The position numbers and the translations under genes are program-made. A DNA stretch of 64,000 bases from Streptomyces sp. 71268 (lineage in GTDB: Bacteria; Actinomycetota; Actinomycetes; Streptomycetales; Streptomycetaceae). Where the stretch lies: assembly GCF_029392895.1 (NCBI RefSeq), contig NZ_CP114200.1, positions 6,206,501 to 6,270,500 on the forward strand, in the 5' to 3' direction. Of this stretch, positions 353 to 39,272 are shown one piece after another; the stretch's first letter is position 1, and the number at the start of each line of letters is the position of its first letter. The notes under the pieces are model-generated. The model saw nothing but the letters and a program-made list of their open reading frames with translations, was not told where the DNA came from and searched no databases.

Positions 353-1783
353 ATGACAGCCCACCGCGGTGAACCCGCCGGGTCGTTGGACGCGGGACTG
401 CTGTCCCCGGTCAGAGCGGCCACGCCCGTCGAAGCGGAGGTCGACGACCAGGCGTGGCTGCGCGCCATGATCGAGGCGGAGGTCGCCCTGGCCCGCGCCC
501 AGGCCCGGCTGGGCACGGTCCCGGCCCAGGCGGCGGAGGTCATCGCCGCCGTCGGCGCCGACGCGGAACTCGACCTGGTGGCCCTGGCGCACGCGGCCCG
601 GGAGACCGCCAACCCGGTCGTCGGCTTCGTACAGGCGCTGACCGTGGCCGTGGCCGACCGGGACGCGCTGGCGGCCGACTACGTCCACCGCGGCTCCACC
701 AGCCAGGACGTGCTGGACACCGCGGCCATGCTGGTCACCCGGCGGGCCGTGCGGCTGATCCTGGCCGACCTGGACCGCTGCCGGGTCGCTCTGGAGCGGC
801 TGGCCCGCGACCACCGGGACACCCCGATGGCCGGCCGCACCCTCACCCTGCACGCGGTCCCGACCACGTTCGGGCTCAAGGCGGCCGGCTGGCTCGACCT
901 GGTCCGCCAGGCCACCCACCGCCTCCAGACGCTGGCCGACACGCTGCCGGTGGAGCTAGGCGGCGCCGCCGGCACGCTGGCCGGCTACCTGGAGTACGCG
1001 GGCCACGGGGACACCGGGGACGGCGCCGCCCGGGAGCGGCGGCGGGCCGAGGCCGCCGCGTACGGCGAGGCCCTGACCGCCGCGTACGCCGAGGAACTGG
1101 GCCTGGCCGTACCGCTGTTGCCCTGGCACGTGCTGCGCACCCCGCTGGCGGACGTCGCGGCGGCCACCTCGTTCCTGGCCGGCGCGCTCGGCAAGATCGC
1201 CGTGGACGTGCAGTCGCTGGCCCGCACCGAGGTCGGCGAGGTCAGCGAGCCGGGGCCGGCCGGGCGCGGCGCGTCGTCGGCCATGCCGCACAAGCGCAAC
1301 CCCGTGCTGGCCACCCTGATCCGCTCGGCCGCCCTGCAACTGCCGCAGTTGGCAGCCGGGTTGTACGGCTGCATGCTCACCGAGGACGAGCGCTCCGGCG
1401 GCGCCTGGCACGCCGAGTGGCAGCCGCTGCGCGAGTGCCTGCGGCTGGCCGGCGGCGCCGCGCACACCGCCGCCGAACTCCTGACGGGCCTTGAGCCGCA
1501 CCCGGAGCGGATGCGCGCCAACCTCGACCTGACCGACGGGCAGATCGTCTCCGAGCGCCTCGCCGCCGTACTCACCCCGCACCTGGGCAAGGCGCGGGCC
1601 AAGGCCGTGCTCGGCGCGGCGGCCCGTACCGCCGCCGAGCGCGGAAGCGGGCTGGGCGCGGTCCTCGCCGAACTGCCCGACGTCACCGCCCACCTCGACC
1701 AGGAGGAGATCAACGAGCTGCTCGACCCCGCCCGCTACACCGGGGCGGCGTCGGCCCTCACCGATCGGGCCCTACGCGCCTGA
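353..1783 (+). CDS. Fumarase/aspartase-superfamily lyase, CreD-like (nitrosuccinate lyase candidate)
   Basis: A 476-residue protein with the overall pattern of the PcaB/adenylosuccinate-lyase branch. An all-helical N-terminal region contains GSTSQDVLDTAAM near residue 120, and the superfamily signature SSAMPHKRNP lies near residue 315, on the mobile loop that carries the catalytic serine. CreD of cremeomycin biosynthesis belongs to this family and eliminates nitrous acid from nitrosuccinate, leaving fumarate. A 3-carboxymuconate cycloisomerase or purine-pathway role cannot be excluded by sequence alone. No pca or pur genes are nearby, and the preceding gene looks like the CreE partner, so I favour nitrite release. 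The ATG has a purine-rich AAGGGACG stretch upstream. Confidence 0.72.
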   Translation: MTAHRGEPAGSLDAGLLSPVRAATPVEAEVDDQAWLRAMIEAEVALARAQARLGTVPAQAAEVIAAVGADAELDLVALAHAARETANPVVGFVQALTVAVADRDALAADYVHRGSTSQDVLDTAAMLVTRRAVRLILADLDRCRVALERLARDHRDTPMAGRTLTLHAVPTTFGLKAAGWLDLVRQATHRLQTLADTLPVELGGAAGTLAGYLEYAGHGDTGDGAARERRRAEAAAYGEALTAAYAEELGLAVPLLPWHVLRTPLADVAAATSFLAGALGKIAVDVQSLARTEVGEVSEPGPAGRGASSAMPHKRNPVLATLIRSAALQLPQLAAGLYGCMLTEDERSGGAWHAEWQPLRECLRLAGGAAHTAAELLTGLEPHPERMRANLDLTDGQIVSERLAAVLTPHLGKARAKAVLGAAARTAAERGSGLGAVLAELPDVTAHLDQEEINELLDPARYTGAASALTDRALRA

Positions 1784-10956: not shown

Positions 10957-11964
10957 ATGAGTGACGCGTTCGTACGTGATGCGCACCCGGGTTTCGCGCG
11001 CATGTTCGGCGAGGGGAAGCTGACGGTCGGTCTCTTCCTGCCGCTGTGGCAGTACGCGGGTGACATGAAGGCCATGGCCGGCCAGGCGGAGGCCATCAAG
11101 CGCGCCGACGAGGCGGAGTTCTCGGCCGTGTGGGTGCGCGACGTGCCGCTGTTCGACCCCGGGTTCGGCGACGCCGGTCAGGTCTTCGACCCGTGGACCT
11201 ACCTGGCCTGGCTGGCCGCGCACACCAAGCGGGTCTCGCTGGCCGCCGGCAGCGCCATCTTCACCCTGCGCCACCCCATCGACCTGGCCAAGCAGGCCGC
11301 CTCGATCGACCACCTCAGCGGCGGGCGCGTCGTGCTGGGCGCCGCCTCCGGCGACCGCGCCTCCGAGTTCCCCGCGTACGGCATCGACCACGCGACGCGC
11401 GGCGAGCGCTACCGCGACGCCGTGACCTGGTTCCGCGAGCTGACCGAGGCCAGGAACCCCTCCATCAGCTCCAGCCTGGGACGTTTCGGCGGCGGCGTGG
11501 ACGTGCTCCCGAAGCCGGTGGCCGGGCGCATCCCGCTGCTGGTCACGGGCTCCTCGCAGCAGAAGCCGCAGTGGATCGCGGAGAACGCCGACGGCTGGCT
11601 GGTCTACCCGGGCGCCACGGCGACCCCGGCCGGCCCGAAGGCGCTGGGCCAGAAGGCCGCCGCGTGGCGCGAGCTGATCCCCGGCGGCCAGTTCAAGCCG
11701 GTGGCCACCAACGAGTGGATCGACCTGGTCGAGGACCGGAAGTACAAGCCCACCCCGCTGCGCGGCGGCTTCGTCCTGCGCACCGGCTCCGACGGCCTCA
11801 TCGAGCTGCTCCAGCGCTGGCAGGACGCCGGCGTCAACCACGCCGCGCTCGGCGTGCAGCACGGCCGTCGGCCGGCCGCCGAGGCCGTGGCCCAACTGGC
11901 CGAGGAGGTCGTCCCGCACTTCCCCGCCCTGGCCGGGCCCGCGCCGCACCAGCCGACGTGGTGA
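10957..11964 (+). CDS. LLM-class FMN-dependent oxidoreductase (copy 1)
   Basis: A 335-residue bacterial luciferase-like monooxygenase. The TIM-barrel start KLTVGLFLPLW, the segment WVRDVPLFDPGFGDAG, FTLRHPIDLAKQAASIDHLSGGRVVLGAASGD and LLVTGSSQQ are all conserved. Such enzymes use FMNH2 supplied by a reductase to oxidise small molecules. The next gene, overlapping by four bases (GTGA), encodes a flavin reductase, making a two-component system. It is divergent from a TetR repressor. A second copy, roughly three-quarters identical by eye, lies 15 kb downstream at the other side of the N-N locus. The substrate is unknown; oxidation of a nitrogen centre of the metabolite or detoxification are both possible. 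Confidence 0.93.
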   Translation: MSDAFVRDAHPGFARMFGEGKLTVGLFLPLWQYAGDMKAMAGQAEAIKRADEAEFSAVWVRDVPLFDPGFGDAGQVFDPWTYLAWLAAHTKRVSLAAGSAIFTLRHPIDLAKQAASIDHLSGGRVVLGAASGDRASEFPAYGIDHATRGERYRDAVTWFRELTEARNPSISSSLGRFGGGVDVLPKPVAGRIPLLVTGSSQQKPQWIAENADGWLVYPGATATPAGPKALGQKAAAWRELIPGGQFKPVATNEWIDLVEDRKYKPTPLRGGFVLRTGSDGLIELLQRWQDAGVNHAALGVQHGRRPAAEAVAQLAEEVVPHFPALAGPAPHQPTW

Positions 11965-13746: not shown

Positions 13747-15015
13747 TCAGGCGGTCTCCCGGATGGCGCGGGCCAGGATGCGCAGGCCCTCGTCCAGTTG
13801 CTCCGTCGAGATGGTCAGCGCCGGCAGCAGCTTGACGACCTCGCTCTGCGGCCCCGAGGTCTCCACGATCAGGCCCAGCTCGAAGGCGCGCGCGCACACC
13901 TTGGTGGCCCGCTCCTTGTCGGCGAACTCGATGCCCCACACCAGGCCACGGCCCCGGACGCTGACGATGGAGCGCCGGTGCTCGTCGGCCATGGCCAGCA
14001 GGCTCGTCTCCACGACCTCGCCGCGGGCGAGGGTCTGCTTCTCCATCTGGCCGTCGGCCCAGTAGGTGTCGAGGGTGGCGGCGGCGGTGACGAAGGCGGG
14101 GTTGTTGCCGCGGAAGGTGCCGTTGTGTTCGCCGGGCTCCCAGACATCGAGTTCGGGCTTGAAGAGGGTCAGGGCCATGGGCAGGCCGTAGCCGCTGATG
14201 GACTTGGAGACGGTGACGATGTCGGGGACGATGCCGGCCTCTTCGAAGGAGAAGAAGGCGCCGGTGCGTCCGCAGCCCATCTGGATGTCGTCGACGATGA
14301 GCAGCATGTCGCGGCGTTTGCACAGGTCGGCCAGTTCGCGCAGCCACTGCGCGCGGGCCACGTTGATGCCGCCCTCGCCCTGCACCGTCTCCACGATCAC
14401 CGCCGCCGGGTAGTTGAACCCGGAGCCCGAGTCCTCAAGCAGCCGCTCGAACCACAGGAAGTCCGGGGTGCGGCCCTGGAGGTAGTTGTCGAACGGCATC
14501 GGCGTGCCGTGCACCAGCGGCACCCCGGCGCCCGCCCGCTTGAAGGAGTTGCCGGTCACGGCCAGCGAGCCGAGGGACATGCCGTGGAAGGCGTTGGTGA
14601 AGGAGACGATCGACTCGCGGCCCTTGACCTTGCGGGCCAGCTTGAGCGCGGACTCGACCGCGTTAGTGCCGGTCGGGCCCGGGAACATCACCTTGTACGG
14701 CAGGTCGCGCGGGCGCAGGATGATGCTCTGGAACTTCTCCAGGAAGCTCCGCTTGGCCGTGGTCGACATGTCCAGGCCGTGCGTGATCCCGTCACGTTCG
14801 ATGTAGTCGATTAACGCGCGCTTGAGGACCGGATTGTTGTGGCCGTAGTTGAGCGACCCGGCCCCGGCGAAGAAGTCCAGGTAGGTGTGGCCGTCCTCGT
14901 CGTACATGCGGCTGCCCTGCGCCCGGTCGAACACGGTGGGCCAGCTCCGGCAGTAGCTGCGCACCTCCGACTCCAGGGTTTCGAAAACGCTCAGGTCAGG
15001 GGGCGTGATGGTCAC
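13747..15015 (-). CDS. Diaminobutyrate--2-oxoglutarate aminotransferase, EctB-like (TTA codon)
   Basis: A 422-residue class III PLP aminotransferase. VDDIQMGCGRTG at ~241-252 and the PLP lysine in VTVSKSISGYGLP (K271) are intact. The EctB-type segments FFAGAGSLNYGHN and PGEHNGTFRGNNPAFVTAA point to L-2,4-diaminobutyrate formation from aspartate semialdehyde and glutamate. No ectA or ectC is adjacent, so ectoine is not the purpose. In this locus it could supply diaminobutyrate for N-hydroxylation or, with the decarboxylase at 29 kb, 1,3-diaminopropane. The GTG start has a GGAGG ribosome site at ideal spacing. A TTA codon lies at 14812-14814 (L68). It is separated from the operon upstream by a 225-base gap with a hairpin. 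Confidence 0.88.
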   Translation of the reverse strand: MTITPPDLSVFETLESEVRSYCRSWPTVFDRAQGSRMYDEDGHTYLDFFAGAGSLNYGHNNPVLKRALIDYIERDGITHGLDMSTTAKRSFLEKFQSIILRPRDLPYKVMFPGPTGTNAVESALKLARKVKGRESIVSFTNAFHGMSLGSLAVTGNSFKRAGAGVPLVHGTPMPFDNYLQGRTPDFLWFERLLEDSGSGFNYPAAVIVETVQGEGGINVARAQWLRELADLCKRRDMLLIVDDIQMGCGRTGAFFSFEEAGIVPDIVTVSKSISGYGLPMALTLFKPELDVWEPGEHNGTFRGNNPAFVTAAATLDTYWADGQMEKQTLARGEVVETSLLAMADEHRRSIVSVRGRGLVWGIEFADKERATKVCARAFELGLIVETSGPQSEVVKLLPALTISTEQLDEGLRILARAIRETA

Positions 15016-15134
15016 AGCATCCTCCGAGGGGGAACAAGGGGAAGGATCGAGAAGCCGTGTGGTGCCGGCTGCTGCGCAGTGCAGTGGGTCGCGGTCGCGG
15101 AGGCGGCCCTGGGGCTTGTCGACGAAGGGACTTC

Positions 15135-15170
15135 GGTGGCGGCACCGGTCGTCCGACCGGCGCCGCCACC
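15135..15170. terminator. Intergenic hairpin between permease and aminotransferase
   Basis: A 16-bp stem with a single A/C mismatch and a 4-nt loop (left arm GGTGGCGGCACCGGTC). It would end or attenuate leftward transcription from the N-N operon before the aminotransferase gene, which then needs its own promoter in the remaining ~120 bases. Confidence 0.65.
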
Positions 15171-15240
15171 CGTGGTGCAACAAGGGGACCGGCACGTGGC
15201 CCGCGCACGCCCCCCGGCGGTGTGGCAGGTGGTGGCACCC

Positions 15241-16212
15241 CTAGGCGCCGCGCGGCCGACGGGCGGCCGACAGGGCGAGCAGGGCGTAGATGGAGGCCGT
15301 GGCCGTGCCAGGGCCGAGCAACAGGAGGGCGACGCTCCAGTCGAGCGCGGCGGCCAGGCTGAGGGCGGCCAGCGCGATGGCGACCGCCACCGCGATCCCC
15401 CGCCGCTCGGGGCCGCGCGCCGCCCCCGCCCCGGTGGCTTCGGGACGCAGGTGCCGCCAACGGGCCCCCACGGCAAGCAGGTTGGTCAGACAGTAGGAGG
15501 CGAGGACGAGGGCGGCGAACCACCCGAGCGCCGTCTCGCCGGCCTGGCCCCCGGGCGGCGCGGCGTCCCGGGGGGACAGCAGCACGGCGTACAGCAGGGC
15601 CGGTGCCGCGAGGCCCAGCACGACGCCCAGCGTGCCGGAGGTGGGGGAGGAGCGCAGGGACGGCACCGTCGACTCGAGCCCCACCCACGCGAAGAGCAGC
15701 GGTACGACGAGCAGCGACGCCCCGCCCGGGAACGAGTCGCCCGTGTCGAGCGACAGCGACCGGGGCGAGAGCCACCAGAGCGCGGCCAGCGCCAGGACCA
15801 CCACCGTCCGCCCGTCGCGCACCGCGGCCGACGGCGTCACCCCGGCCCAGGCCAGCGCCCCGGCCAGGAGCAGCACGGCCACCCCGAGGACGTAGGCCGT
15901 CGGGCCGGAGCCGGCGAACTCGCCGGCCGCACCGACCACGACGGCCTGTCCGATGGCGAAGCCGCCGAAGTACAGGCCGTGCACGACGTACGCCACGCCC
16001 GGCCCGACCCGCTCCCGTACGAACTCCGCCGCCCCGAGCCCGCGCGTCCCGCCGGCGGCCCCGACCAACAGGGCCCAGGCCAACAACGCCCCGGCGAGGA
16101 CGAGCGAGGCCGATCCGCTCTTCGACACGGGTGCCAGTGCCGCGGGTACCAGCAGTGTTCCCGCTCCCAGAACCGCGGTCGTGGTACCGAACGCGGTGCG
16201 CACGACACTCAT
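15241..16212 (-). CDS. Small amino-acid/metabolite permease (APC-like, ~10 membrane helices)
   Basis: A 323-residue protein made almost wholly of hydrophobic segments. The first helix has AVLGAGTLLVPAALAPVSKSG, reminiscent of the glycine-rich unwound helix 1 of APC-superfamily amino-acid transporters. It is shorter than typical APC permeases (400-450 residues), consistent with about ten helices. It follows the MetRS-like gene by 11 bases in the same operon, so it probably exports the amino-acid-like product or imports a precursor. Direction and substrate cannot be read from the sequence. Confidence 0.75.
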   Translation of the reverse strand: MSVVRTAFGTTTAVLGAGTLLVPAALAPVSKSGSASLVLAGALLAWALLVGAAGGTRGLGAAEFVRERVGPGVAYVVHGLYFGGFAIGQAVVVGAAGEFAGSGPTAYVLGVAVLLLAGALAWAGVTPSAAVRDGRTVVVLALAALWWLSPRSLSLDTGDSFPGGASLLVVPLLFAWVGLESTVPSLRSSPTSGTLGVVLGLAAPALLYAVLLSPRDAAPPGGQAGETALGWFAALVLASYCLTNLLAVGARWRHLRPEATGAGAARGPERRGIAVAVAIALAALSLAAALDWSVALLLLGPGTATASIYALLALSAARRPRGA

Positions 16213-16223
16213 GCCGGCCCAGC

Positions 16224-17879
16224 TCACCCGAGCTTGTGGAAGACGTCCGGCAGCGGGGTCCTCACCTGCCGGCCCGCCGGCACGAGCAGCAGGTCCGCCA
16301 GCTCGGGCCAGCTCGGCATCCGCGTCGCCACGTCCACCGGGATGTCCAGGTGCTTGGCGATCAGGTGGGCCCACCCCGGCATCAGCGGCGCGGCCAACAC
16401 CGACACCAGCGCCAGCGTCTCCACGTGCGTCACCAGGCGCGAGGCGTACGCCCGCTGCCCGTCCTCGGAGCCCTCGGCCGCGCCGCGCGCCTCGTTCAGC
16501 CGCGGCAGGTCCTTCACGGCCCGGTCGATGGTGGCCGCCAGCTCGGCCGCGGCGCGTTGCGGCGAGAAGGAGTTGGCCGACAGCGAGCCGGCGATGGCCT
16601 TGGGGAGTTCGAGCAGCGAGATGGTCAGCGGCTCGGTCAGGCCCTCGTGCTCCGGCACCGTCGAGCCGAAGTCCTCGGCCAGCAGCGACAGCACGGTCTG
16701 CGCCCACCGCTGCAACCCGTCGACGAGGATCGTCTCCACCGAGTTGACGAGCTCCTTCATCGCGAAGTTGCCCTGCTCCCGCTCCGGCCCGGTCAGGCAC
16801 AGGTGGAAGCGCAGCGCGTCCGCGTTGACCTGGTGCAGGAACTCCCCGCCCCAGATCGCGTGGCCCCGGCTGGTGGAGAACTTGTCGCCCTCCAGCCGGT
16901 AGAACTCGTTGGTGATCACCTGGCTCGGCAGCGTGTAGTCGCCGTGCGCGAGGAGCAGCGCCGGCCACAGCACCGCGTGCGAGAAGGAGCAGTCGAAGCC
17001 CAGGAAGTTGACGATCTTGGTGTCCGGGTCGGACCACTGCTCCTGCCACAGGCCCGGCCGCCCCTGGGCCTCGGTCAGGCAGGCCGTCCCGGCCAGGTAG
17101 CCGCAGATGCCGCTGAACCAGGTGTCCAGGATGTGCCCGTCCCAGCCGTCCAGCGGCACCGGGATGCCGTAGTCGGCCTGCCGGCTGATCGGTGTCAGGG
17201 GCAGCTCGTTCTCGAACAACGTGTCCAGGTAGGCGCGCAGCCGGGGCCGCCACTGGCCGCCGTTCTTCGTGTAGTAGGCGAGCAACTGCTCGCGGTACTC
17301 CTCAAGCGGGAAGACGATGCGCTGGAGCGTGGTCAGCTCCGGGGTCTCCCAGCACGCCGTGCACTTCGCGGCGCCCAGCGCACCGGACTCCTGGGCCAGG
17401 CCGCACGCCTCGCAGTAGATGCCGTCCGACGGCGCCTCGCAGAACTGGCACTCGCCGCGGACCTCGGCCTCGTACAGGTAGCGCTCGCACCGGGGGCAGT
17501 GGAACACCGGCAGCTCGACGACCCTGAGCTTGCCCTCCTCCCAGAGCCGGGTGAAGAAGCTCTGGACGATCTCGGTGTGCTTGGGCGTCATCAGCGGACG
17601 GGTGAACCAGTCGTGGTGCATCGAGCCCAGCGAGAGGGTCTCCTCCATCCGGTTGCCGAACAGCAACGCGGTCTCGTACGGAGTGGACCCGATCTCGGCG
17701 GCGCGGCGCGGCACGTAGCAGGAGTGCTCGTCCGAGTAGCCGACGTAGCGCACCTCGTGGCCGCGCTGGCGCAGGTGCCGGCTCAGCACGTCCGCGCCGA
17801 GGAAGGGACCGGATATGTGACCCAGGTGCAGGTCCCCGTTGGGGTTGGGCGGCGCGCTGGTGACGATGTAGGTATTCAC
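16224..17879 (-). CDS. Methionyl-tRNA-synthetase-like ligase (hydrazine synthetase candidate)
   Basis: A 551-residue class I synthetase-like protein. The adenylation signature HLGH is at 18-21 after APPNPNGD. Four CxxC zinc knuckles lie near 128, 144, 156 and 173, and a KMSKS-type loop reads KFSTS at 333-337. A helical C-terminal part follows. A housekeeping MetRS would not sit in an operon with N-hydroxylases. In s56-p1 (Spb40) and triacsin (Tri28) a MetRS-like domain fused to a cupin joins N-hydroxylysine to glycine and creates an N-N bond. Here the cupin is a separate gene two positions upstream. The GTG start overlaps the acetyltransferase stop as GTGA, so translation is coupled. The activated amino acid could differ from glycine. 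Confidence 0.85.
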   Translation of the reverse strand: MNTYIVTSAPPNPNGDLHLGHISGPFLGADVLSRHLRQRGHEVRYVGYSDEHSCYVPRRAAEIGSTPYETALLFGNRMEETLSLGSMHHDWFTRPLMTPKHTEIVQSFFTRLWEEGKLRVVELPVFHCPRCERYLYEAEVRGECQFCEAPSDGIYCEACGLAQESGALGAAKCTACWETPELTTLQRIVFPLEEYREQLLAYYTKNGGQWRPRLRAYLDTLFENELPLTPISRQADYGIPVPLDGWDGHILDTWFSGICGYLAGTACLTEAQGRPGLWQEQWSDPDTKIVNFLGFDCSFSHAVLWPALLLAHGDYTLPSQVITNEFYRLEGDKFSTSRGHAIWGGEFLHQVNADALRFHLCLTGPEREQGNFAMKELVNSVETILVDGLQRWAQTVLSLLAEDFGSTVPEHEGLTEPLTISLLELPKAIAGSLSANSFSPQRAAAELAATIDRAVKDLPRLNEARGAAEGSEDGQRAYASRLVTHVETLALVSVLAAPLMPGWAHLIAKHLDIPVDVATRMPSWPELADLLLVPAGRQVRTPLPDVFHKLG

Positions 17880-18472
17880 GAAACGCTGCTTCCTTCCGCG
17901 ATACGCAGGGCGGAGACGACGTCGTCCGACGCGTGGGGGTACGTGACACCGGCACCGATACGGGCGTCCGGCGGCAGATCGTCCAGGATCACGGCGTGCG
18001 CGCCGATCCGGGTGTTCACACCGATGCACACCGGGCCGAGCACGCTGGCCCCGGTGCAGATGATCACGCCGTCCTCCACCACCGGGTGGCGGCGCGAACG
18101 GGCGGGTCGCTTCAGGTCCTTCCACCAACCCACCGAGCCGAGGGTGACCTGGTGGTAGAGCATCACATCGTCGCCGATGCGCACCGTCTCCCCGATGACC
18201 ACGCCGGTGCCGTGGTCGATGAAGAAACGCCGGCCGATCGTCGCGCCCGGGTGGATCTCGATCCCGCTGACCGCCCGCGCCATCAGCGACAGCGCGCGGG
18301 CGATGGTGCGGTTGCCGCGCTTCCACAGGCGGTTGGCCAGCCGGTAGGTCCACAGGGCGTGGATGTGCGGGTACAGCAGGACCTCTCGGTTGCTGCGCGC
18401 CGCCGGGTCCTTGGCACGAACGGTGGCGAGGTCCTCGCGCAGCATCTCTAACACGGACTTATATGTGGGCAT
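17876..18472 (-). CDS. Serine O-acetyltransferase (CysE/EpsC-type; TTA codon)
   Basis: A 198-residue left-handed beta-helix acetyltransferase: a helical N-terminal ~65 residues, then hexapeptide repeats with IEIHPGATIGRRFFIDHGTGVVIGE, carrying the catalytic histidine, and LYHQVTLGSVG. It transfers acetyl from acetyl-CoA to L-serine, giving O-acetylserine. No cysteine synthase is adjacent, so a biosynthetic role is likely: O-acetylserine could donate an alanyl unit to a nitrogen nucleophile, or serve an activated-serine step. The TTA codon at 18449-18451 is residue 8. It overlaps the upstream FAD oxidase by 14 bases and the downstream MetRS-like gene by 4. Confidence 0.9.
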   Translation of the reverse strand: MPTYKSVLEMLREDLATVRAKDPAARSNREVLLYPHIHALWTYRLANRLWKRGNRTIARALSLMARAVSGIEIHPGATIGRRFFIDHGTGVVIGETVRIGDDVMLYHQVTLGSVGWWKDLKRPARSRRHPVVEDGVIICTGASVLGPVCIGVNTRIGAHAVILDDLPPDARIGAGVTYPHASDDVVSALRIAEGSSVS

Positions 18473-19661
18473 ACGGAGCCTCCGGCGTGATCAGGTTGCC
18501 GTTCGCGAAACGCTGCGGACGGTAGGGCTCCAGCAGCGGCTCGCCGGCCTTGCCGATGACGGCCTCGCCCTCGCTTATCTCTCGTGCGGCCAGCTCGGCC
18601 ACGGCGGGTGCCAACTTGAATCCGCCGCCGCTGAAGCCGAGGGCCAGGTACAGCCCGTCGGGCCCGGCCGGCCCGATCACGGGTCGCTTGTCCGGGGTGT
18701 AGCCGTCGTAGCCGGCGCGGGTGCCGACCAGCGGCGCGCTGTCCACGGCCGGCACCCGGCGGGAGACCGCCGCCACCGCCGCGTCCACCTCGTCGCGGGT
18801 CAGCGGGGCGGCACCCTGTTCCAGGTCCACGTCCGGGTGGCTCTGCACGCCGAAGAAGAACCGGTCCGTGCCGCCGGGCCGGAAGTAGCTGCCGATGGTG
18901 TCGTCGATGCAGGTCGGGAGCTGGTTGTCGGAGCCACGACGGCCGGCGCCGGGCAGCGCGACCTGGGCCAGCCCGATCCGTCGGGGAACGACCGGGACCT
19001 CGACCCCGAGGTGGGCGGCCGACTCGGCCCCCCAGGCGCCGCTGGTCAACACGACCAACGGCGCCTCGATGCGGCCCGCCGAGGTCTCCACCCCGGTCAC
19101 CGCGCCCTCGTGCTCCAGCACCCGGACCACCCGCGTGCCCTCGGCCTCGCTGACCCCGATCCGGCGCGCCGCCGCGATCAGCGAGTTGGCCGTGGCGGCC
19201 GGGTCCGCGTAACCGCCGGACGGCTCGTACGCCACGGCGGCCACGCCCGCCAGGTCCAGGCCGGGAAAGAGGGTCCCGGCCTGGTCCGGGTCGATGACCT
19301 CGACCCGCTCGTACGACATCGCCTCGGCGGCCACGGCGGTGTTCACCCGCAGGGCCTCCACGTGCTCCTCGCCCACCAGCATCGCGAAACCGGTGCGCCG
19401 GTACCCGCAGTCGCCCCCGATGACCTCGCCCCACTGCTCGAAGGTGGGCAGGCTGAGCGCGGTCAGTAGGGTGTCGCAGGCCGTCGTGTGGTGCAGGCGC
19501 AGCAGCCCGCCCGAGCGGGCCGTGGCGCCCTGCGAGGCGATCCGGCTCTGCTCGCACACGACGACCCGCTCCAGGCCGGCGAGGGCGAGGTGGTAGGCGA
19601 TGGCCGCCCCGATCACGCCGCCGCCGACGATGACGGCGTCCGCGCTCCGGGTAGCGGTCAC
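18459..19661 (-). CDS. FAD-dependent oxidase, glycine/sarcosine-oxidase (DAO) family
   Basis: A 400-residue flavoprotein. The Rossmann motif GGGVIGAAIAYHLALAG starts at residue 13, and the family's C-terminal flavin-contacting segment LGFSGGGFKLAPAVAELAA is present. D-amino-acid-oxidase relatives oxidise C-N bonds of amino acids. In the triacsin and s56-p1 pathways the equivalent enzyme (Tri27, Spb39) oxidatively cleaves the lysine-glycine hydrazine, releasing hydrazinoacetate. The same job is likely here. The GTG start overlaps the cupin stop (GTGA), so cupin, oxidase, acetyltransferase and MetRS-like ligase form one translationally coupled block. Confidence 0.9.
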   Translation of the reverse strand: MTATRSADAVIVGGGVIGAAIAYHLALAGLERVVVCEQSRIASQGATARSGGLLRLHHTTACDTLLTALSLPTFEQWGEVIGGDCGYRRTGFAMLVGEEHVEALRVNTAVAAEAMSYERVEVIDPDQAGTLFPGLDLAGVAAVAYEPSGGYADPAATANSLIAAARRIGVSEAEGTRVVRVLEHEGAVTGVETSAGRIEAPLVVLTSGAWGAESAAHLGVEVPVVPRRIGLAQVALPGAGRRGSDNQLPTCIDDTIGSYFRPGGTDRFFFGVQSHPDVDLEQGAAPLTRDEVDAAVAAVSRRVPAVDSAPLVGTRAGYDGYTPDKRPVIGPAGPDGLYLALGFSGGGFKLAPAVAELAAREISEGEAVIGKAGEPLLEPYRPQRFANGNLITPEAPYAHI

Positions 19662-20074
19662 TGACTCGGCCCGGTGGCGTCGTCCTCGATGCCGAACTCG
19701 GCCGCCCACTTGGCGCGCTCGGCGGCGATGGCCTCCGCGCTGCCCCACCAGATGGTGACGAACCGCAGTCGGGTGTCGCCGTCGTTGGTCAGCGCGTGGT
19801 CCTTGAACGGCGTCATCAGGATCGTGTCACCGGGGCTCACCCGGCGCTCCTCGTCGCCGAGGCGCAGCACGCCGGTGCCCTCGGTGATGAAGAACATCTC
19901 GTACTCGTCGTGGTTGTGCGGCGTGGAGGTCGCACCGGGCGCCACATCGACCCAGGCGCCGCCCCAGAACGGGGTCTCCGGGACCGCCTCCTCCCAGGGG
20001 AAGATGCGCCGGCCGCTGACGTTGAACTTCTCCTCGAAGGTCATGTCTTCCGGGCGTGTGGTGAAGAAGTGCAC
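19658..20074 (-). CDS. Stand-alone cupin (putative N-N bond-forming metalloprotein)
   Basis: A 138-residue single cupin domain with the canonical metal ligands: H53, H55 and E59 in TPHNHDEYEMFFITEG, and H93 in MTPFKDHALTN. In known hydrazine synthetases a zinc cupin domain of this kind is fused in front of the MetRS-like domain and rearranges the aminoacyl hydroxylamine ester into a hydrazine. A free version in the same operon suggests the two work as separate subunits. The GTG start is preceded by CAGGAGAGG and gives a compact domain. General cupins have many functions, so the role rests on context. Confidence 0.85.
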   Translation of the reverse strand: MHFFTTRPEDMTFEEKFNVSGRRIFPWEEAVPETPFWGGAWVDVAPGATSTPHNHDEYEMFFITEGTGVLRLGDEERRVSPGDTILMTPFKDHALTNDGDTRLRFVTIWWGSAEAIAAERAKWAAEFGIEDDATGPSQ

Positions 20075-20112
20075 GATTGATTCCTCTCCTGAACAGTGCT
20101 GTTCCGACGGTG

Positions 20113-21441
20113 CTAGACGGCGAGGGCGGCGGAGGCCGCCTGCTGCTGGCGCGCGATGGTGGCCCGCAGGTCGCGGTGGACGGTGTCCGCCTTGGTCGCC
20201 ATCTGACTGAAGGACGTCGCGCTGGCGATGCCGTGCCGCCACTCGGTCATTCCGTCGAGGTAGATGCCGACCGTGCAGCGGTCGCTGTTCTCGGCGCGGT
20301 AGGCGCGGGTGACGTTGAGGAGTCCGTCGGCGTCGCGCGACAGGTGGGGGGCGAAGGGCTCAAGCGCCGTCGGGAACTGCGGCTCCGTGTACCCGGTGCA
20401 CAGGATCACCGCGTCGGCCTCGATGGCGCCCGCCTCCTCCGTGTACACCTCGGAGGTCGTCAGCCGCACCCCGCTCTCGGAGACCGCGAGGTCGGTGACC
20501 TCGACGCGGCGGTGCATGTGCAGCCGGTTGGTGCCGGACAACCGGTCCTGGTAGGCCGCCTGGTAGAGGGCGGTGGACACGTCGGGGTCCACGGCCGAGT
20601 AGTTGGTGGCGCGGGCGTGCGCGAGCGCCCGCTCGCGGGCCTCGCCCTCCAGGCCGTAGAAGTAGTCCGTCTCGGCGGGGAAGTACGCCTCGTTGCTGAA
20701 GTGGCCGAGTTCGTACATCTTGAAGCCGCCGTGCCGCACCAGCGAGTGGATCTGCGCCTCGGGGTGCTCGCCCGCCAGGTACAGGATGATCTCGCCCGCG
20801 GTCTGGCCGGCGCCGATGATCGCGAAGCGCGGTGCCCGGCCCAGGTTCTCGCGCAGCGCGGTCATCCGGGGCAGGAACTCGCTGGCGTGGAAGACCCGCT
20901 CGCCGACGTGCTTCTGGAAGGACTCCGGCACGTAGGGGACGTGGCCGGTGGCCAGTACCACGTTGCGGCTCAGGTGCTCGTGGGTGGCGCCGTCCCGGGG
21001 GTCGCGGCTGATCACCCGCGCGACGCGGACGGTGCCGTCGGCGTCGGTGACGGGCTCGACGCGCAGCACCTCCCGGTGGTACTCGGCCTGCCTGCGCACC
21101 TGGGCCGCGGCCCACTGCACATACTCCGACCACTCCAGGCGGCTCACGTAACCGCCCAGCAGCGTGAACGGGTAGAAACGCCCGCTTTGCATGAGGAAGT
21201 TGGTGAAGGAGAAGCGGGAGCGGGGGTCGCGCGGGGTGGCGAGGTCGCGCAGGAAGTGGTGCTGGATGTCGGTGCCCGGCAGGACCTGGTTGGGCTGCCA
21301 GGCCGACGTCGCGCTCCGTTCCAGGTAGACCGCGTCCAGGGGGCCGGTTCCCTGATGAGCGTCGTCGTGGTCCTCGATAGCGGCGGCGAGCGAGATGCCA
21401 GAGGGGCCGAATCCGGCCACCACAACGTCGTGGATGTGCAT
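20113..21441 (-). CDS. Flavin-dependent N-monooxygenase (SidA/IucD family), copy 1
   Basis: A 442-residue class B N-hydroxylating monooxygenase: FAD motif GFGPSG at residues 10-15, NADPH motif IIGAGQTAGEIILYL in the middle and the CTGY segment near the C-terminus. The family hydroxylates the terminal amine of lysine, ornithine or diamines using NADPH and O2. The segments LPGTDIQHHFLRDLATPRDPRSRFSF match those in lysine/ornithine hydroxylases. It follows the other copy by 38 bases. The two share the fold but differ widely in sequence, so they probably act on different amines or at different stages. The likely output is the hydroxylamine used by the MetRS-like/cupin pair. Confidence 0.9.
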   Translation of the reverse strand: MHIHDVVVAGFGPSGISLAAAIEDHDDAHQGTGPLDAVYLERSATSAWQPNQVLPGTDIQHHFLRDLATPRDPRSRFSFTNFLMQSGRFYPFTLLGGYVSRLEWSEYVQWAAAQVRRQAEYHREVLRVEPVTDADGTVRVARVISRDPRDGATHEHLSRNVVLATGHVPYVPESFQKHVGERVFHASEFLPRMTALRENLGRAPRFAIIGAGQTAGEIILYLAGEHPEAQIHSLVRHGGFKMYELGHFSNEAYFPAETDYFYGLEGEARERALAHARATNYSAVDPDVSTALYQAAYQDRLSGTNRLHMHRRVEVTDLAVSESGVRLTTSEVYTEEAGAIEADAVILCTGYTEPQFPTALEPFAPHLSRDADGLLNVTRAYRAENSDRCTVGIYLDGMTEWRHGIASATSFSQMATKADTVHRDLRATIARQQQAASAALAV

Positions 21442-21479
21442 ATTGGGGTGTCTCCCGTCGAAGGTCGCGGTCCGGTGGA

Positions 21480-22820
21480 TCAGAGGGCGATCGGGACAGA
21501 GTCCGAGGGGTCGTCCAGCTTCTCGCCCAGCCGGGCGGCCAGTCCCTCGGCGAGGGTCCCGGTACGCAGCGACAGCAGACTGAACGAGCCGGCGTCACCG
21601 ATGCCGTGGCTGGACTCGCACAGGCCGTTGAGGAACAGCGGCGGGAGGGCGTTCTCGTCCTCGTTGGAGACCAGCGCGTAGTCGCGGCTGACCTCGAGGC
21701 GGCCGTCCACCTCCTTCTTGAGGTGCTGCGCGACGGGGGCCAGCAGCGGCGGGAACAGCTCCTCGTGCGGGCCCGGGCCCATGTTGCGGAAGCCGGTGGC
21801 CAGCACCACGAAGTCGACCTCGTCGCGCACCTGCTCGCCGGTGTGCAGCTCCTCGAAGTCGATGACCACGCCCTTGTCGTTGGGCACGACGGAGGTGGCC
21901 TGGAGGTTGCCCTTCACGAACAGCCGCTGGTCGCCGTCGAGCTGCTGCTCGTAGATGGCCAGGTACAGCTCCTTGAGCACGTCACCGTCGGCCGAGGAGT
22001 AGTTGGTGGGCTGCATGTACGCGTCCAGCGCGCGGCGGCTTTCCCGCGAGGCGTTGAAGTAGTACTCGGTGAACTCGGGGAAATAGCCCTCTTCGCTGAA
22101 CGGGCTGGTGTCCTTGAGTCGCAGCGAGTACGAACGCGGGTAGGTCATCACCCGGGCTCCGGGGAATTGCCGGTGCAGGTCGAGCGCGAGCTCGACGGCG
22201 CTCTGGCTGCCACCGATCACCGCGACCGCCTTCGGGGGCTCGTCGGCGGTGAGTTCCTTGAGCCGCGGCAGGTACTGGGTGAGGTGGAAGACGCGGTTGC
22301 TCTCCGCCGCGGCCGCGTCGTACGGGGTCGGCACATAGGGCGTACGACCGGGTGCCATGACCACGGAGCGGGCCAGGTACCTGCGGCCGGAACCGGTGGA
22401 GACCTCCCAGACGCGCTCGCCGGCGTTTTCCACCACGTCGATGCCGACGGCGTACTGGCCGCAGTCCACCTGGTGCGAGAAGAAGCTCGCCGCCCAGCGG
22501 ATGTAGCCGGCGTACTCCTTGCGCAGCGGGAACTCGATCGGGAGGTTGAAGTGCTTGAGCAACCGACCCTGCTCGTGCAGGTAGTTGATGAAGCTGTAAC
22601 GACTGCGCGGGTTCCGCAGAGTCACCAGGTCGCGGCTGGGGTGGTTCTGGATGTCGGAGCCGTCGAGGAGCATGCCGGGCTGCCAGTCGGGCGTCGGGCG
22701 AGCCTCAAGAAACCGTATGTCCAGGCTTGGATACTTCTCCTCTAATGCGATCGCCAACGCAAGGTTGGCAGGGCCGAAGCCGACACCGAGAACGTCGTGC
22801 ACACGCGCAGGAAAAGACAT
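21480..22820 (-). CDS. Lysine/ornithine/diamine N-monooxygenase (SidA/IucD family), copy 2 (TTA codon)
   Basis: A 446-residue enzyme and first gene of the leftward operon. It shows GFGPAN at 14-19, SDIQNHPSRDLVTLRNPRSRYSF, the NADPH motif IGGSQSAVELALDLH and ATGF near the C-terminus, closely following siderophore N-hydroxylases. The substrate is a primary amine such as lysine, ornithine or diaminobutyrate. The chosen ATG has an AGAGGAG ribosome site at good spacing; the longer in-frame extension upstream has no matching homology. The TTA codon at 22743-22745 is residue 26, so translation of the operon's first gene would depend on bldA. Confidence 0.92.
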   Translation of the reverse strand: MSFPARVHDVLGVGFGPANLALAIALEEKYPSLDIRFLEARPTPDWQPGMLLDGSDIQNHPSRDLVTLRNPRSRYSFINYLHEQGRLLKHFNLPIEFPLRKEYAGYIRWAASFFSHQVDCGQYAVGIDVVENAGERVWEVSTGSGRRYLARSVVMAPGRTPYVPTPYDAAAAESNRVFHLTQYLPRLKELTADEPPKAVAVIGGSQSAVELALDLHRQFPGARVMTYPRSYSLRLKDTSPFSEEGYFPEFTEYYFNASRESRRALDAYMQPTNYSSADGDVLKELYLAIYEQQLDGDQRLFVKGNLQATSVVPNDKGVVIDFEELHTGEQVRDEVDFVVLATGFRNMGPGPHEELFPPLLAPVAQHLKKEVDGRLEVSRDYALVSNEDENALPPLFLNGLCESSHGIGDAGSFSLLSLRTGTLAEGLAARLGEKLDDPSDSVPIAL

Positions 22821-23315: not shown

Positions 23316-23777
23316 ATGGACAGAATTGATCGCATGATCCTCCATGAGCTTGAACGGGACGGTCGGTTAACCAATGCTGATCTTGCCGCCAAGGTGGGAT
23401 TGACCCCGACGCCGTGCCTCCGGCGCGTCAGGAACCTGGAAAGAATTGGGGTCATACGCGGTTACCGAGCGGACCTGGATGGCAGTTTCCTGGACTCGGG
23501 ATTCCAGCCCTTCGCCACGGTGGCGCTGAAACAAGGGGATTGGCATCTTATGACCGAATTTGAGGCCAAGGTGGCCGCCCTACCCCAGGTACTGGAAGCG
23601 CACCGGCTCTTTGGTGACCCGGACTACCTGCTGCGTATCGCGGTGGCGGACATCACGGCCTATGAGCGCTTCTACGCCGAAACCCTGTGCCGGTTGCCGG
23701 GAGTCGCACAAGTGACGACGCACTTAACCATGAAGGTAGTCAAGGGCAACCGGGGGCTACTCGCGGGACATGAGTGA
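23316..23777 (+). CDS. Lrp/AsnC-family regulator (two TTA codons)
   Basis: A 153-residue protein: an AsnC helix-turn-helix at ~1-50 (IDRMILHELERDGRLTNADL, then GLTPTPCLRRVRNLERIGVIRGYRADLD) and a RAM ligand-binding domain with QVLEAHRLFGDPDYLLRIAVADITAYERF. The family senses amino acids. Divergent placement from the N-N operon makes it the likely pathway-specific switch. TTA codons occur at residue 18 (23367-23369) and residue 137 (23724-23726). Composition is more A/T-rich than the core genes, consistent with acquisition with the cluster. Confidence 0.93.
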   Translation: MDRIDRMILHELERDGRLTNADLAAKVGLTPTPCLRRVRNLERIGVIRGYRADLDGSFLDSGFQPFATVALKQGDWHLMTEFEAKVAALPQVLEAHRLFGDPDYLLRIAVADITAYERFYAETLCRLPGVAQVTTHLTMKVVKGNRGLLAGHE

Positions 23778-25035: not shown

Positions 25036-25818
25036 CCCCCGGACATCGTTGCCTGTACAGCGCACGTGATGTGTCCACCCTCTGCCCCCTCCACGCCCTT
25101 CGTCACCCTCCGAGATATCCGGCGTGACCTGCGACGCTCGCCGCTCCCCACAGCGTGAACCCGCGTCGAACGTCATGCCCGTCGTGACCCTCCTGCCCCT
25201 CCTGACACGATCCCGGCCCACACGACCAGCCGCAACACCCCCTCGGCCCGCTCGTGGGCATCTGCGTCCCGCCAGCCACGTACATGGCCAAAACGCATGG
25301 GTCGGCAAGGTCGCACCCGCATCATCGGGCGCACCCGCCACCCTTGGAAGGGGGAAAGCGGGGCATAAGCGCGATCGCGTACGACAGTCCGGTGGCTCGT
25401 ACGGCTCCTCGCGCTGGCGCCCGGCGAACCCGCCGGGCGAGGCCCCGCCGCGGCGCCCCGTCGCGAGCCGCCCGCACCCCGCCCGGCCAGCGTCGGGTCG
25501 AGAACCGACACCGGTTCGCCGATGTGCCCCGGGCGGTGCCCCGAACCGTGGAAGGATGAGATCCTTCCGGTTCCGGAGCAGGTCAGCGCGCTGCGCAGGG
25601 TCACGGGTTAGTTACGTCACAGAGTCGTCCGGAGCCCGGCGGCAAAGGAGGCGCTAAGCGGAACCTCTTCCGCTAATCGCTCCGAGGCCACGTGAAATAC
25701 GTTTCCGGCATATCTCTATTCAGATTCGCTATACCTGATCCCGCAGATCAGCGCCGTGAAGTTTCTGATAGCGTCACGGAGAGCCGACCTTTCTACACGG
25801 GAAGTAGGTATATCCGGG
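25036..25818. promoter_or_regulatory. Long non-coding region before the second LLM operon, with two perfect hairpins
   Basis: About 780 bases without a credible gene. GGAAGGAT-gag-ATCCTTCC (25550-25568) is a perfect 8-bp repeat flanked by partial extensions. AGCGGAA-cctc-TTCCGCT (25657-25674) is a perfect 7-bp stem. Nearer the gene, CCGTGA and TCACGG form another short pair around 25754-25787. These may be the LysR terminator plus operator sites for the LLM operon. The region after 25690 is A/T-richer and likely contains the promoter. Confidence 0.45.
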
Positions 25819-26817
25819 ATGGACCTCACGGACGAGCATCCTGGCTTTCTCAGGATGTTCACCCCGGGCAAGCTGACAGTCGGCCTGTTCCTGCCGTTGT
25901 GGCCCTACACCGGTGACATGACGCGGATGGTCGGGCAGGGTGACGCGATTCAACTCGCCGACCGGTCCGGCTTCGCGGCGATCTGGGTGCGGGACGTACC
26001 CCTGCTCGATCCGAGCTTCGGCGACGTCGGGCAGGTCTTCGATCCCTGGACGTACCTGACCTGGCTGGCGGCGCACACCAACCACGCGGCGCTGGCCGCG
26101 GGGAGCGTCGTCTTCACCCTGCGACACCCGATCGACCTGGCCAAACAGGCCGCCTCGATCGACCAGTTGTCCGGCGGTCGCCTGGTCCTGGGCGCGGCCT
26201 CCGGCGACCGGCCGGCCGAGTTCCCGGCCTACGGGATCGACTTCCCGACGCGGGGCGAGCGTTACCGGCAAGCGGTGGAGATGTTCCGGACCGTCCTGGA
26301 GTCCGAACGCCCCACCGTGTCCTCCCCGCTGGGCCGCCTGAGCGGTGGCGTCGACGTACTGCCGAAACCGGTCAGTGGCCGTGTTCCGTTGTTGGTGACG
26401 GGTTCTTCGCAGCAGGACCCGGAGTGGATCGCGGAACACGCCGATGGCTGGTTGACGTACCCCGGGGCCATGGTCAACGCGGCCGGACCGAGGGCCCTGG
26501 GGGAAAACGCGGCCGCATGGCGAAAACTCATTCCGAGTGGCCGGTTCAAGCCGGTGGCGACGAATGCGTGGATTGATCTGGTCGAGGACCGGCGACACGA
26601 GCGCACGGCACTGCGGGCCGGATTCATCCTGCGGACCGGAACCGACGGCCTCCTGGAGCTGCTGGGGCGCTGGCAGGACGCCGGCATCAACCACGTGGCC
26701 CTGGGAGTCCAGCACGGCCAGCGACCGGCCGCCGAGGTGGTGGCCCAACTGGCCGAGGAAGTCGTCCCGCATTTCCCCGCGCTGACCGCGCCGGCACCCC
26801 AGCGGCCCGCGTGGTAG
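25819..26817 (+). CDS. LLM-class FMN-dependent oxidoreductase (copy 2)
   Basis: A 332-residue paralogue of the enzyme at 10.9 kb, roughly three-quarters identical by eye throughout: KLTVGLFLPLW, FTLRHPIDLAKQAASIDQLSGGR and LLVTGSSQQ are the same. The start MDLTDEHPGF matches the first copy's MSDAFVRDAHPGF; an ATG 63 bases further upstream would add unmatched residues. No flavin reductase is adjacent, so it must borrow FMNH2, perhaps from the other operon. It leads an operon with the DNA-repair methyltransferase and the mycothiol-dependent transferase. This suggests oxidation of, or protection from, the cluster's reactive product. Confidence 0.92.
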   Translation: MDLTDEHPGFLRMFTPGKLTVGLFLPLWPYTGDMTRMVGQGDAIQLADRSGFAAIWVRDVPLLDPSFGDVGQVFDPWTYLTWLAAHTNHAALAAGSVVFTLRHPIDLAKQAASIDQLSGGRLVLGAASGDRPAEFPAYGIDFPTRGERYRQAVEMFRTVLESERPTVSSPLGRLSGGVDVLPKPVSGRVPLLVTGSSQQDPEWIAEHADGWLTYPGAMVNAAGPRALGENAAAWRKLIPSGRFKPVATNAWIDLVEDRRHERTALRAGFILRTGTDGLLELLGRWQDAGINHVALGVQHGQRPAAEVVAQLAEEVVPHFPALTAPAPQRPAW

Positions 26818-29028: not shown

Positions 29029-30519
29029 ATGATGAGTGATCTTATTTCTGCCGACCTAACGGAGTCTTGGCTCCTCAAGCCGAGCCCCCTGGACATCGGC
29101 CCGGAGCAGGTGGACGAGTTACTCGAAACCACCGTCACGCTGGTGCGCAAGCACGCGGACGGCGTGGCCGACGGGTCCGTGGCGCCCGTGTCGTTCGACA
29201 GCGACCAGATCCGCAAGTGGGTGGGCGAGTATGACTTCTCCACGCCCCACTCCGCCGAGTCGGTGCTGGCCGACGTGGCCACGGGGCTGGCGCAGTGGGG
29301 CGTCCATACCACCCACCCCCGTTACTTCGGGCTGTTCAACCCCACCCCGCACTGGTGGGGCGTCGCCGGCGAGTTGCTGACCGCCGCGTTCAACCCCCAG
29401 CTCGCCGCGTACAGCCACGCGCCGGCGGCGGTCGAGATCGAGCAGCACGTGCTGCGCTTCCTGGCCAGCCGGCTCGGCCTGCCGTCCCCGGTGGCCGGCT
29501 CGTTCACCACCGGGGGCGCCGAGGCCAACCTGAGCGCGGTGCTCATCGCGCTCACCCGGCACTTCCCGGAGTACGCCGACCGCGGCCTGGCGGCCGTTCC
29601 CGGCCAGCCGGTGATGTACGCCTCGGCCGAAAGCCATCTGGCCTGGCTGAAGATCGCGCACATGACCGGACTCGGCCGGGACGCGGTGCGACTGGTCCCG
29701 GTCGACGACAGCTACCGGATGGACATCAACGAACTCCGCAGGCTGCACGCCGCCGATGTCGCGGCCGGCATGCGGCCGTTCCTGCTCGTCGGCACGTCGG
29801 GCACCACCGGCGGCGGCGCCCTCGACCCGCTGCCGGAGCTGGCCGCGTGCGCCGCCGAGTGGAACACGCACCTGCACGTCGACGCGGCCTGGGCGGGCAC
29901 GGTCGCCTTCTCCGACGAACTGCGCCCCATGCTGGCCGGTATCGAGCACGCGGACAGCGTCACCGTGGACGCCCACAAGTGGATGTCCGCACCGATGGGC
30001 GCCGGCATGTTCCTGAGCAGGCACCCGCAGGCGGTCGCGGAGAGCTTCCGGGTCAGCACCTCGTACATGCCCGCGGACACCGTGGGCAGCGACCCCTACA
30101 CCAACAGCGTGCAGTGGTCGCGCCGGCTGATCGGTCTCAAGGTCTTCCTCGGGCTGGCCGTGACCGGGCAGGACGGTTACGCCACCCAGGTCGAACGCGA
30201 CACCGCGCTCGGCCGGCTGCTCGCCGTCCGCGCGACGGAGAGCGGCTGGCACCGCATCAACGACACGCCGCTGCCCCTGGTGTGCGTCGTGGACCCGGCG
30301 GTCGACGAGCGGTTGAGCCCGGCGGAGAGCTGGGCCTGGCACTCGGCCGTCGCGGACAAGGTGGTCGAGCGCGGGCAGGCGTGGATCAGCCCGGTGCGTC
30401 TGTCCGGCCGCGCCGCGCTGCGGCTGTGCATCACGAGCTACCGCACCGAGGCCGCCGACGTCGCCGCGTTGGTGGAGGAGATGGACAAGGCCCGTATCGC
30501 CGTCGGAATCCCCGGCTGA
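29029..30519 (+). CDS. Group II PLP-dependent amino acid decarboxylase (TTA codon)
   Basis: A 496-residue decarboxylase of the glutamate/aromatic/diaminobutyrate type: TTGGAEANLSA at ~161, HVDAAWAG at 283-290 with the PLP-contacting aspartate and alanine, and the Schiff-base lysine K317 in VDAHKWMSAPMG. The substrate is not evident. Candidates are L-2,4-diaminobutyrate (giving 1,3-diaminopropane), aspartate, lysine or a late intermediate. The EctB-like aminotransferase of the same locus makes diaminobutyrate the attractive guess. A TTA codon lies at 29119-29121 (residue 31). Two adjacent ATG codons (29029, 29032) can both serve as start. Confidence 0.9.
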   Translation: MMSDLISADLTESWLLKPSPLDIGPEQVDELLETTVTLVRKHADGVADGSVAPVSFDSDQIRKWVGEYDFSTPHSAESVLADVATGLAQWGVHTTHPRYFGLFNPTPHWWGVAGELLTAAFNPQLAAYSHAPAAVEIEQHVLRFLASRLGLPSPVAGSFTTGGAEANLSAVLIALTRHFPEYADRGLAAVPGQPVMYASAESHLAWLKIAHMTGLGRDAVRLVPVDDSYRMDINELRRLHAADVAAGMRPFLLVGTSGTTGGGALDPLPELAACAAEWNTHLHVDAAWAGTVAFSDELRPMLAGIEHADSVTVDAHKWMSAPMGAGMFLSRHPQAVAESFRVSTSYMPADTVGSDPYTNSVQWSRRLIGLKVFLGLAVTGQDGYATQVERDTALGRLLAVRATESGWHRINDTPLPLVCVVDPAVDERLSPAESWAWHSAVADKVVERGQAWISPVRLSGRAALRLCITSYRTEAADVAALVEEMDKARIAVGIPG

Positions 30520-36584: not shown

Positions 36585-37847
<1,263 letters not shown>

Positions 37848-37913
37848 AGGAATTCTTTCTCCACGGGTAGAGGTGCGGAATGCGCCACCGCTCGGGTGGC
37901 GACAGGCGGTGCC

Positions 37914-38162
37914 TCAGGACTGGTGCTTGAGGATGTAGTTCGTCGCGTCGCCGACGGTCTTGAGGTTCTTGACGTCGTCGTCCGGGATCTTGACGTCGAA
38001 GCGCTCTTCGGCGGCGACGACGACCTCGACCATGGACAGCGAGTCGACGTCCAGGTCGTCGGTGAAGGACTTGTCCACCTGGACGTCCTCGGCCGGGATA
38101 CCGGCGATCTCGTTCACGATCTCTGCGAGACCGGCGACGATCTCTTCCTGAGTGGCGGCCAT
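37914..38162 (-). CDS. acpP: Acyl carrier protein of fatty acid synthesis
   Basis: An 82-residue acidic four-helix carrier protein. The phosphopantetheine serine lies in DDLDVDSLSMVEVV. It shuttles acyl chains between FabH, FabF and the reductases and dehydratases. It sits between fabH and fabF in the standard Streptomyces order. Confidence 0.97.
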   Translation of the reverse strand: MAATQEEIVAGLAEIVNEIAGIPAEDVQVDKSFTDDLDVDSLSMVEVVVAAEERFDVKIPDDDVKNLKTVGDATNYILKHQS

Positions 38163-38258
38163 GTTGGCGCTCTCCTTCGATGTTGTGCGATGAGGTGTGC
38201 AGCCCCGAGGGTTCCGGGCTGCGGTGAAGCGGTGAATCCGCGGGTCGATCGTACGGAC

Positions 38259-39272
<1,014 letters not shown>

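Follow-up and report, generated by a model that had tools for sequence, protein, structure and literature searches.

Enzymes that make a nitrogen-nitrogen bond are few and are wanted as biocatalysts. In hydrazine synthetases built from a cupin and a part resembling methionyl-tRNA synthetase (MetRS), the product is described as being set by which amino acid the MetRS-like part accepts (PMC8664883), and the partner amino acids listed in a review are glycine, alanine, serine, glutamate and tyrosine (PMC11705231). The Spb38-40, Tri26-28, NngKLM and azaserine modules combine an N-hydroxylase, a MetRS-like/cupin enzyme and a flavoenzyme of the DAO family, as does the locus described here; those modules use lysine and glycine, and cupin and MetRS are fused in Spb40 and Tri28. 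The two parts are sometimes standalone enzymes, of which one set, from Rhodococcus jostii RHA1, has been tested (PMC8664883), and albofungin Afn8 and Afn9 are separate cupin and MetRS-like genes (PMC11705231). We report an operon of this family in a 64,000-nucleotide stretch of Streptomyces sp. 71268 (the window, bases 6206501-6270500 of a single-contig 8.38 Mb genome). We hold with moderate confidence that its split MetRS-like/cupin synthetase would join N4-hydroxy-L-2,4-diaminobutyrate with a serine-type amino acid; this partner is probably O-acetyl-L-serine, which a serine O-acetyltransferase (SAT) of the same operon would supply. The substrates, reactions and product are predicted from the genes and their order, the protein families, the ligand and motif residues, the clade and the pattern of co-occurrence.

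The hydrazine synthetase operon comprises eight minus-strand genes, from NMO1 (22820) to EctB (13747), and a divergent regulator gene lies upstream:

21480..22820, minus strand: NMO1, SidA/IucD-type flavin N-hydroxylase (PF13434, Lys_Orn_oxgnase, 277 bits)
20113..21441, minus strand: NMO2, second SidA-type N-hydroxylase (PF13434, Lys_Orn_oxgnase, 275 bits)
19658..20074, minus strand: stand-alone cupin (PF07883, Cupin_2)
18459..19661, minus strand: DAO-family flavoenzyme, glycine oxidase/sarcosine oxidase-like (PF01266, 202 bits)
17876..18472, minus strand: SAT, EpsC type (hexapeptide acetyltransferase; NF041874, 188 bits against a cut-off of 150)
16224..17879, minus strand: MetRS-like ligase (tRNA-synt_1g; HLGH, zinc-knuckle cysteines, KFSTS)
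15241..16212, minus strand: membrane protein, predicted transporter (about nine hydrophobic spans by hydropathy)
13747..15015, minus strand: EctB-type L-2,4-diaminobutyrate transaminase (Aminotran_3; TIGR02407, 676 bits against a cut-off of 552)
23316..23777, plus strand: Lrp/AsnC regulator, divergent (PF01037)

In the proposed pathway, EctB would convert aspartate semialdehyde to L-2,4-diaminobutyrate, NMO1 is the predicted N4-hydroxylase of that amine, and the SAT is predicted to acetylate L-serine, supplying O-acetyl-L-serine to the MetRS-like protein. The latter is predicted to adenylate (O-acetyl)serine and to esterify it, without tRNA, to the oxygen of the N-hydroxy group, and the zinc site of the cupin, the predicted N-N forming enzyme, would rearrange this unstable ester. 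The DAO-family enzyme is predicted to oxidize a C-N bond beside the hydrazine, which would give a smaller hydrazine or set up the loss of acetate; NMO2 may carry out a second N-oxidation, on a hydrazine nitrogen, and the membrane protein would transport the product. Such a synthetase would be ordinary in mechanism and unusual in its substrate partners.

The gene families named in the original prediction are confirmed in place, all on the minus strand, by Pfam and NCBIfam profile scores, and the SAT and EctB-like aminotransferase that it listed as additions both exceed their cut-offs. By fold the MetRS-like protein is nearest to PyrN of pyrazomycin biosynthesis (VIA-align), and trees group it apart from tRNA-charging MetRS. 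Grouping with the tRNA-charging enzymes had been named as the outcome that would undo the assignment; the protein instead sides with the MetRS domain of PyrN, as expected of a MetRS-like/cupin hydrazine synthetase. A tRNA-charging or resistance MetRS was rejected on this separate grouping and on profile scores, none of 16 NCBIfam MetRS families being matched above cut-off (best 346 of 553 bits); a separate MetRS, 28% identical, is encoded elsewhere in the genome. The ATP motifs HLGH and KFSTS, the latter with the catalytic Lys, and the zinc knuckles are all present as claimed. The K458A variant of PyrN is inactive (PMC8664883).

The four metal ligands attributed to the cupin were found as H53, H55, E59 and H93, matching the spacing of PyrN H50/H52/E56/H90. 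Its structure model has a pLDDT of 89, and by sequence PDB 5uqp, the RHS1 cupin of RHA1, is its third match (E 2.1e-11). The operon resembles PyrN, Spb40, Tri28, ForJ and the RHS1 set in KFSTS, cupin ligand spacing and N-hydroxylase partner, but differs from the PyrN-type synthetases in its split genes, its own deep clade, another pocket and the added SAT and EctB. The split itself, first taken for a new feature, was dropped as a novelty: it is published (PMC8664883, PMC11705231) and frequent, since 33 MetRS-like loci without a SAT comprise 19 split, 13 fused and one cut by a contig end. The RHS1 set and Afn8/Afn9 share the separate cupin and MetRS-like genes, but their descriptions, as far as available, mention no SAT or diaminobutyrate transaminase (PMC8664883, PMC11705231); among these only the RHS1 cupin was compared by sequence.

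Among 392 Streptomyces genomes searched, 68 had a MetRS-like match at E 1e-60; neighborhoods were taken for the 40 best of 72 matches (after the window's own and that of S. buecherae) and six named loci, giving a sample of 14 SAT-clade loci, the window included, and 33 other MetRS-like loci. The SAT group forms one side of a 99/99 branch in a tree of 52 rows, and a SAT is present in 14/14 clade loci and 0/33 of the others. DAO, SAT and MetRS-like genes are contiguous at every clade locus, with DAO immediately before SAT; the cupin directly precedes DAO in 11 of the 14, and NMO1 is always present, with a second N-hydroxylase in 11 loci and NMO1 alone in three. The original prediction had called for a look at other genomes for the split order; the genes of the operon recur in 13 other loci, which exceeds chance. 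The clade was gathered by likeness to the MetRS-like protein of the window and consists of related members, so the link between SAT and clade is an association, not a set of many independent events. A wider search at E 1e-95 in 394 genomes of the class returned only two matches, both in Streptomyces.

The SAT also scores 190 bits with TIGR01172 (cysE), below the cut-off of 211, and no other gene in the genome scores above 31 bits as a SAT. It retains the KDP, DH and RHP motifs and the residues that we take to be those for free serine. Its GWW loop was considered as a mark of the clade and rejected, being also present in at least three of six other Streptomyces SATs without a hydrazine cluster. 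In 6 of 102 proteins matched, including those of Paractinoplanes rishiriensis and Dactylosporangium, a SAT is fused to the MetRS-like domain, and these fusion proteins share the clade pocket residues.

That pocket, read from the alignment in E. coli MetRS numbering, consists in 14/14 rows of G256, I257, C297, S298, F299, S300 and H301 with S or C at 255, and in all 13 readable rows of A12, P13 and N15. It is unlike all 32 readable non-clade rows: E255 and N297 occur in 32/33 non-clade rows, the exception being the truncated L067, T15 in 32/32 readable rows and M256 in 30. PyrN likewise has T15, E255, N297 and R301 where the window has N15, S255, C297 and H301, and C297 is retained in 120/126 database relatives. 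Eight pocket residues are reportedly named in Matsuda 2024. From SAT and pocket together, the partner amino acid is likely to be serine or O-acetylserine; narrowing it to O-acetylserine itself is a more tentative step. Our literature search found no paper joining a hydrazine synthetase to a serine acetyltransferase or O-acetylserine, and the actinopyridazinone work of 2022 and Matsuda 2024 may touch the clade.

The strongest alternative, which we nevertheless think unlikely, keeps the diaminobutyrate chemistry and lets the MetRS-like protein take plain L-serine, the SAT acetylating the serine hydroxyl of the product afterwards so that it can be eliminated. A phosphorylation plays this part at the end of valanimycin biosynthesis, where it makes the leaving group. 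The SAT is a genuine member of its family, and its fusion to the MetRS-like domain would fit neighboring steps in either order. L-Serine, moreover, is a known substrate of the MetRS-like/cupin family (PMC8664883, PMC11705231). Yet the SAT has retained the residues for free serine, the smaller clade residues at 256 and 300 suit a larger amino acid, and no eliminating enzyme was recognized in the operon.

Returning to the coupling with a serine-type amino acid, two gene families point to L-2,4-diaminobutyrate as the amine. The operon EctB resembles ectoine EctB, being 90% identical in protein sequence to that of the complete ectABCD locus at 6.82 Mb of the same genome, but the operon, unlike an ectoine locus, has no ectA or ectC. 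Seven clade loci (L009-L012, L045-L047) carry between their two N-hydroxylase genes an aminotransferase of another type, 37-39% identical where compared; those of L010 and L047 exceed the diaminobutyrate-transaminase cut-off TIGR00709, and L048 and L050 have ectB-type genes above cut-off. Two kinds of transaminase therefore appear to fill one role, which favors L-2,4-diaminobutyrate.

This supply is also what an actinopyridazinone-like pathway would need, in which N4-hydroxy-diaminobutyrate is joined to L-alanine, DAO cleavage gives 2-amino-4-hydrazinylbutanoate and the SAT is unrelated. The Apy9/10/11 system, as described, shares diaminobutyrate as the N-hydroxylated amine and a DAO-family cleaving enzyme with our operon, but has alanine as partner and no SAT in the available account; it was compared by description only (PMC11705231). 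We regard this pathway as improbable here: a SAT that is constant in the clade and naturally fused to the MetRS-like domain is hard to explain with alanine.

The N-hydroxylases bear on the choice between diaminobutyrate and lysine. By alignment we take the Lys of the F-L-K-D stretch, present in the MbtG, PvdA and KtzI rows, to be SidA Lys107. Arg occupies this position in 23/23 intact clade rows (the broken rows of L008 being left out), whereas the other hydrazine-cluster rows have Lys in 29/30 and Ala in L051. NMO1 has Arg for Lys and Glu for the Asn of SPFxN, and NMO2 has Arg for Lys with the Asn kept. SidA depends on Lys107, which holds the carboxylate of the substrate and without which the enzyme is inactive, and Asn293 also binds ornithine (PMC7347517). 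Arg, being longer than Lys, would be in keeping with a shorter substrate. NMO2 is not a recent duplicate of NMO1, because it is only 34% identical to it (240 bits) and matches PDB 5cqf more strongly (317 bits).

The hydroxylysine and glycine route to hydrazinoacetic acid, known from s56-p1, triacsin, azaserine and N-nitroglycine and drawn on by the original prediction through its Spb/Tri analogy, uses the same enzyme kinds, N-hydroxylase, DAO, MetRS-like and cupin (PMC13274452). It is nonetheless very improbable, because of the Arg in both hydroxylases, the dedicated diaminobutyrate transaminase alongside the SAT, and a pocket that departs from every readable non-clade row. The idea of another amine/amino-acid pair, which that prediction also raised, gains support as an inference, diaminobutyrate as amine being already known from actinopyridazinone (PMC11705231). 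A SAT that serves cysteine synthesis and stands here fortuitously or to supply sulfur is scarcely credible: a CysK-type gene above cut-off is present and the genome has no other SAT, but 32 of 41 relatives lack a SAT at E 1e-30 (nine have one, own included) and the gene adjoins the MetRS-like gene at all 14 loci, with natural fusions besides.

Several observations weigh against a synthetase joining N4-hydroxy-diaminobutyrate to (O-acetyl)serine. Foldseek places three tRNA-charging MetRS above PyrN, and the top phmmer match of the MetRS-like protein, likewise above PyrN, is P. abyssi MetRS (212 bits against 196 bits). In the trees the SAT clade splits off outside the portion of the family that includes PyrN, so that function is transferred across a deep split, and we know of no characterized member of the clade. 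The best VIA-align matches of the cupin are structures without known function, RHS1 not being among the 50 matches listed, and three clade cupins (L047, L049, L050) have only the first His of H-x-H in an alignment that has a misplaced L045 row. PDB 5cqf, named by its depositors as an L-lysine 6-monooxygenase, has Arg at the Lys position, so Arg alone cannot exclude lysine. L044 and L049 (short contig) show no diaminobutyrate transaminase, and in the window the EctB gene stands 225 nt past the preceding gene. The SAT might come into play only once the N-N bond exists, or might work in cysteine synthesis, and kinship of the loci means that Fisher tests overstate independence.

The DAO-family enzyme would act next. 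Within this family, Spb39 frees hydrazinoacetate, and Apy10 attacks the opposite C-N bond (PMC11705231). If the enzyme here cut on the side of diaminobutyrate, aspartate semialdehyde, which EctB uses as substrate, would be regenerated; a cut on the other side would yield 2-amino-4-hydrazinylbutanoate. Were an acetoxy group present, oxidation to a hydrazone would permit loss of acetate to an azoalkene, for which base-promoted loss of HX from alpha-halohydrazones offers a chemical precedent (PMC9573662). It is conceivable, although we think it rather unlikely, that the deep clade loads O-acetyl-L-serine from a dedicated, sometimes fused SAT as a built-in leaving group, and that DAO oxidation expels acetate to leave an azoalkene (1,2-diaza-1,3-diene) or a trapped heterocycle. 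To our knowledge, no biosynthetic pathway uses azoalkene warhead chemistry.

Deep clade, own pocket, SAT and diaminobutyrate supply together suggest a substrate pair outside the list given in PMC11705231. Several Streptomyces, including S. antibioticus DSM 40234, S. buecherae and S. philanthi, carry such a cluster, and we found no metabolite assigned to it in the literature. End products may differ among the clade loci, because some carry additional genes for ATP-grasp ligases (L010, L048), a P450 (L049) or transporters. The S. buecherae (L007) and S. philanthi bv. triangulum (L008) loci have the same genes and flanks as the window. At 5060-14127 of L008 (strain 23Af2), the genes for the two N-hydroxylases and EctB, along with flanking genes, are fragmented, by decay or sequence errors, and SAT and MetRS-like are intact. 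L050 (2757-19361) has a P450-family gene slotted between cupin and DAO, with ectB, an amino acid permease, an Lrp regulator and, upstream, a serine hydroxymethyltransferase gene; gene calling truncated the starts of its MetRS-like and SAT genes.

The tight, partly overlapping packing originally claimed holds for part of the operon: cupin/DAO, DAO/SAT and SAT/MetRS-like overlap by 4, 14 and 4 nt, and 11 nt separate MetRS-like from the membrane-protein gene; EctB, after its 225-nt gap, does not share in it. This spacing suggests that the first seven genes, NMO1 to the membrane protein, form one operon. The membrane-protein gene, absent from the original prediction, matches no Pfam family at E 0.001, and relatives occupy the same slot in L010, L011, L044, L046 and L047. 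The best start codons are ATG at 22820 for NMO1 and GTG at 20074 for the cupin; promoter and terminator scans gave no match. The divergent Lrp/AsnC protein is a possible regulator, retained in L007 and L008 and elsewhere only in L050, as a 63% relative.

A CreD-type nitrosuccinate lyase gene (window 353-1783, plus strand; 735 bits against a cut-off of 650) ends another gene cluster (genome 6191501-6207500) with an NAD_binding_9 protein in the CreE place, anthranilate synthase, a salicylyl-CoA-5-hydroxylase-like flavin monooxygenase, two AMP ligases, an MMPL transporter, a thioester reductase and a SARP regulator. The genome has two CreD copies above cut-off and a third below. The cluster suggests a nitrite-dependent aryl diazo-type pathway beside the hydrazine operon. 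A nitrite link between them was rejected: CreD lies within about 16 kb only in the window and S. buecherae, and in seven other SAT-clade genomes searched it is hundreds of kb off, on another contig or absent (G348), so we treat it as a neighboring cluster.

Two luciferase-like oxidoreductase genes, about 73-75% identical (10960-11964 and 25756-26817, both plus strand), flank the operon on both sides, as also in S. buecherae and S. philanthi. An O6-methylguanine-DNA methyltransferase-type gene (PF01035; 26825-27346, plus strand) begins 4.0 kb beyond NMO1; a self-protection role was rejected, since it was found only in the window, L007 and L008 among the loci searched. Farther out lie a pyridoxal phosphate-dependent decarboxylase gene (29029-30519, plus strand), whose best NCBIfam match, diaminobutyrate decarboxylase RhbB, is far below cut-off (151 of 900 bits), and ketoacyl synthase and acyl carrier protein synthase III genes (36585-39272, minus strand) that resemble a fatty-acid synthesis set.

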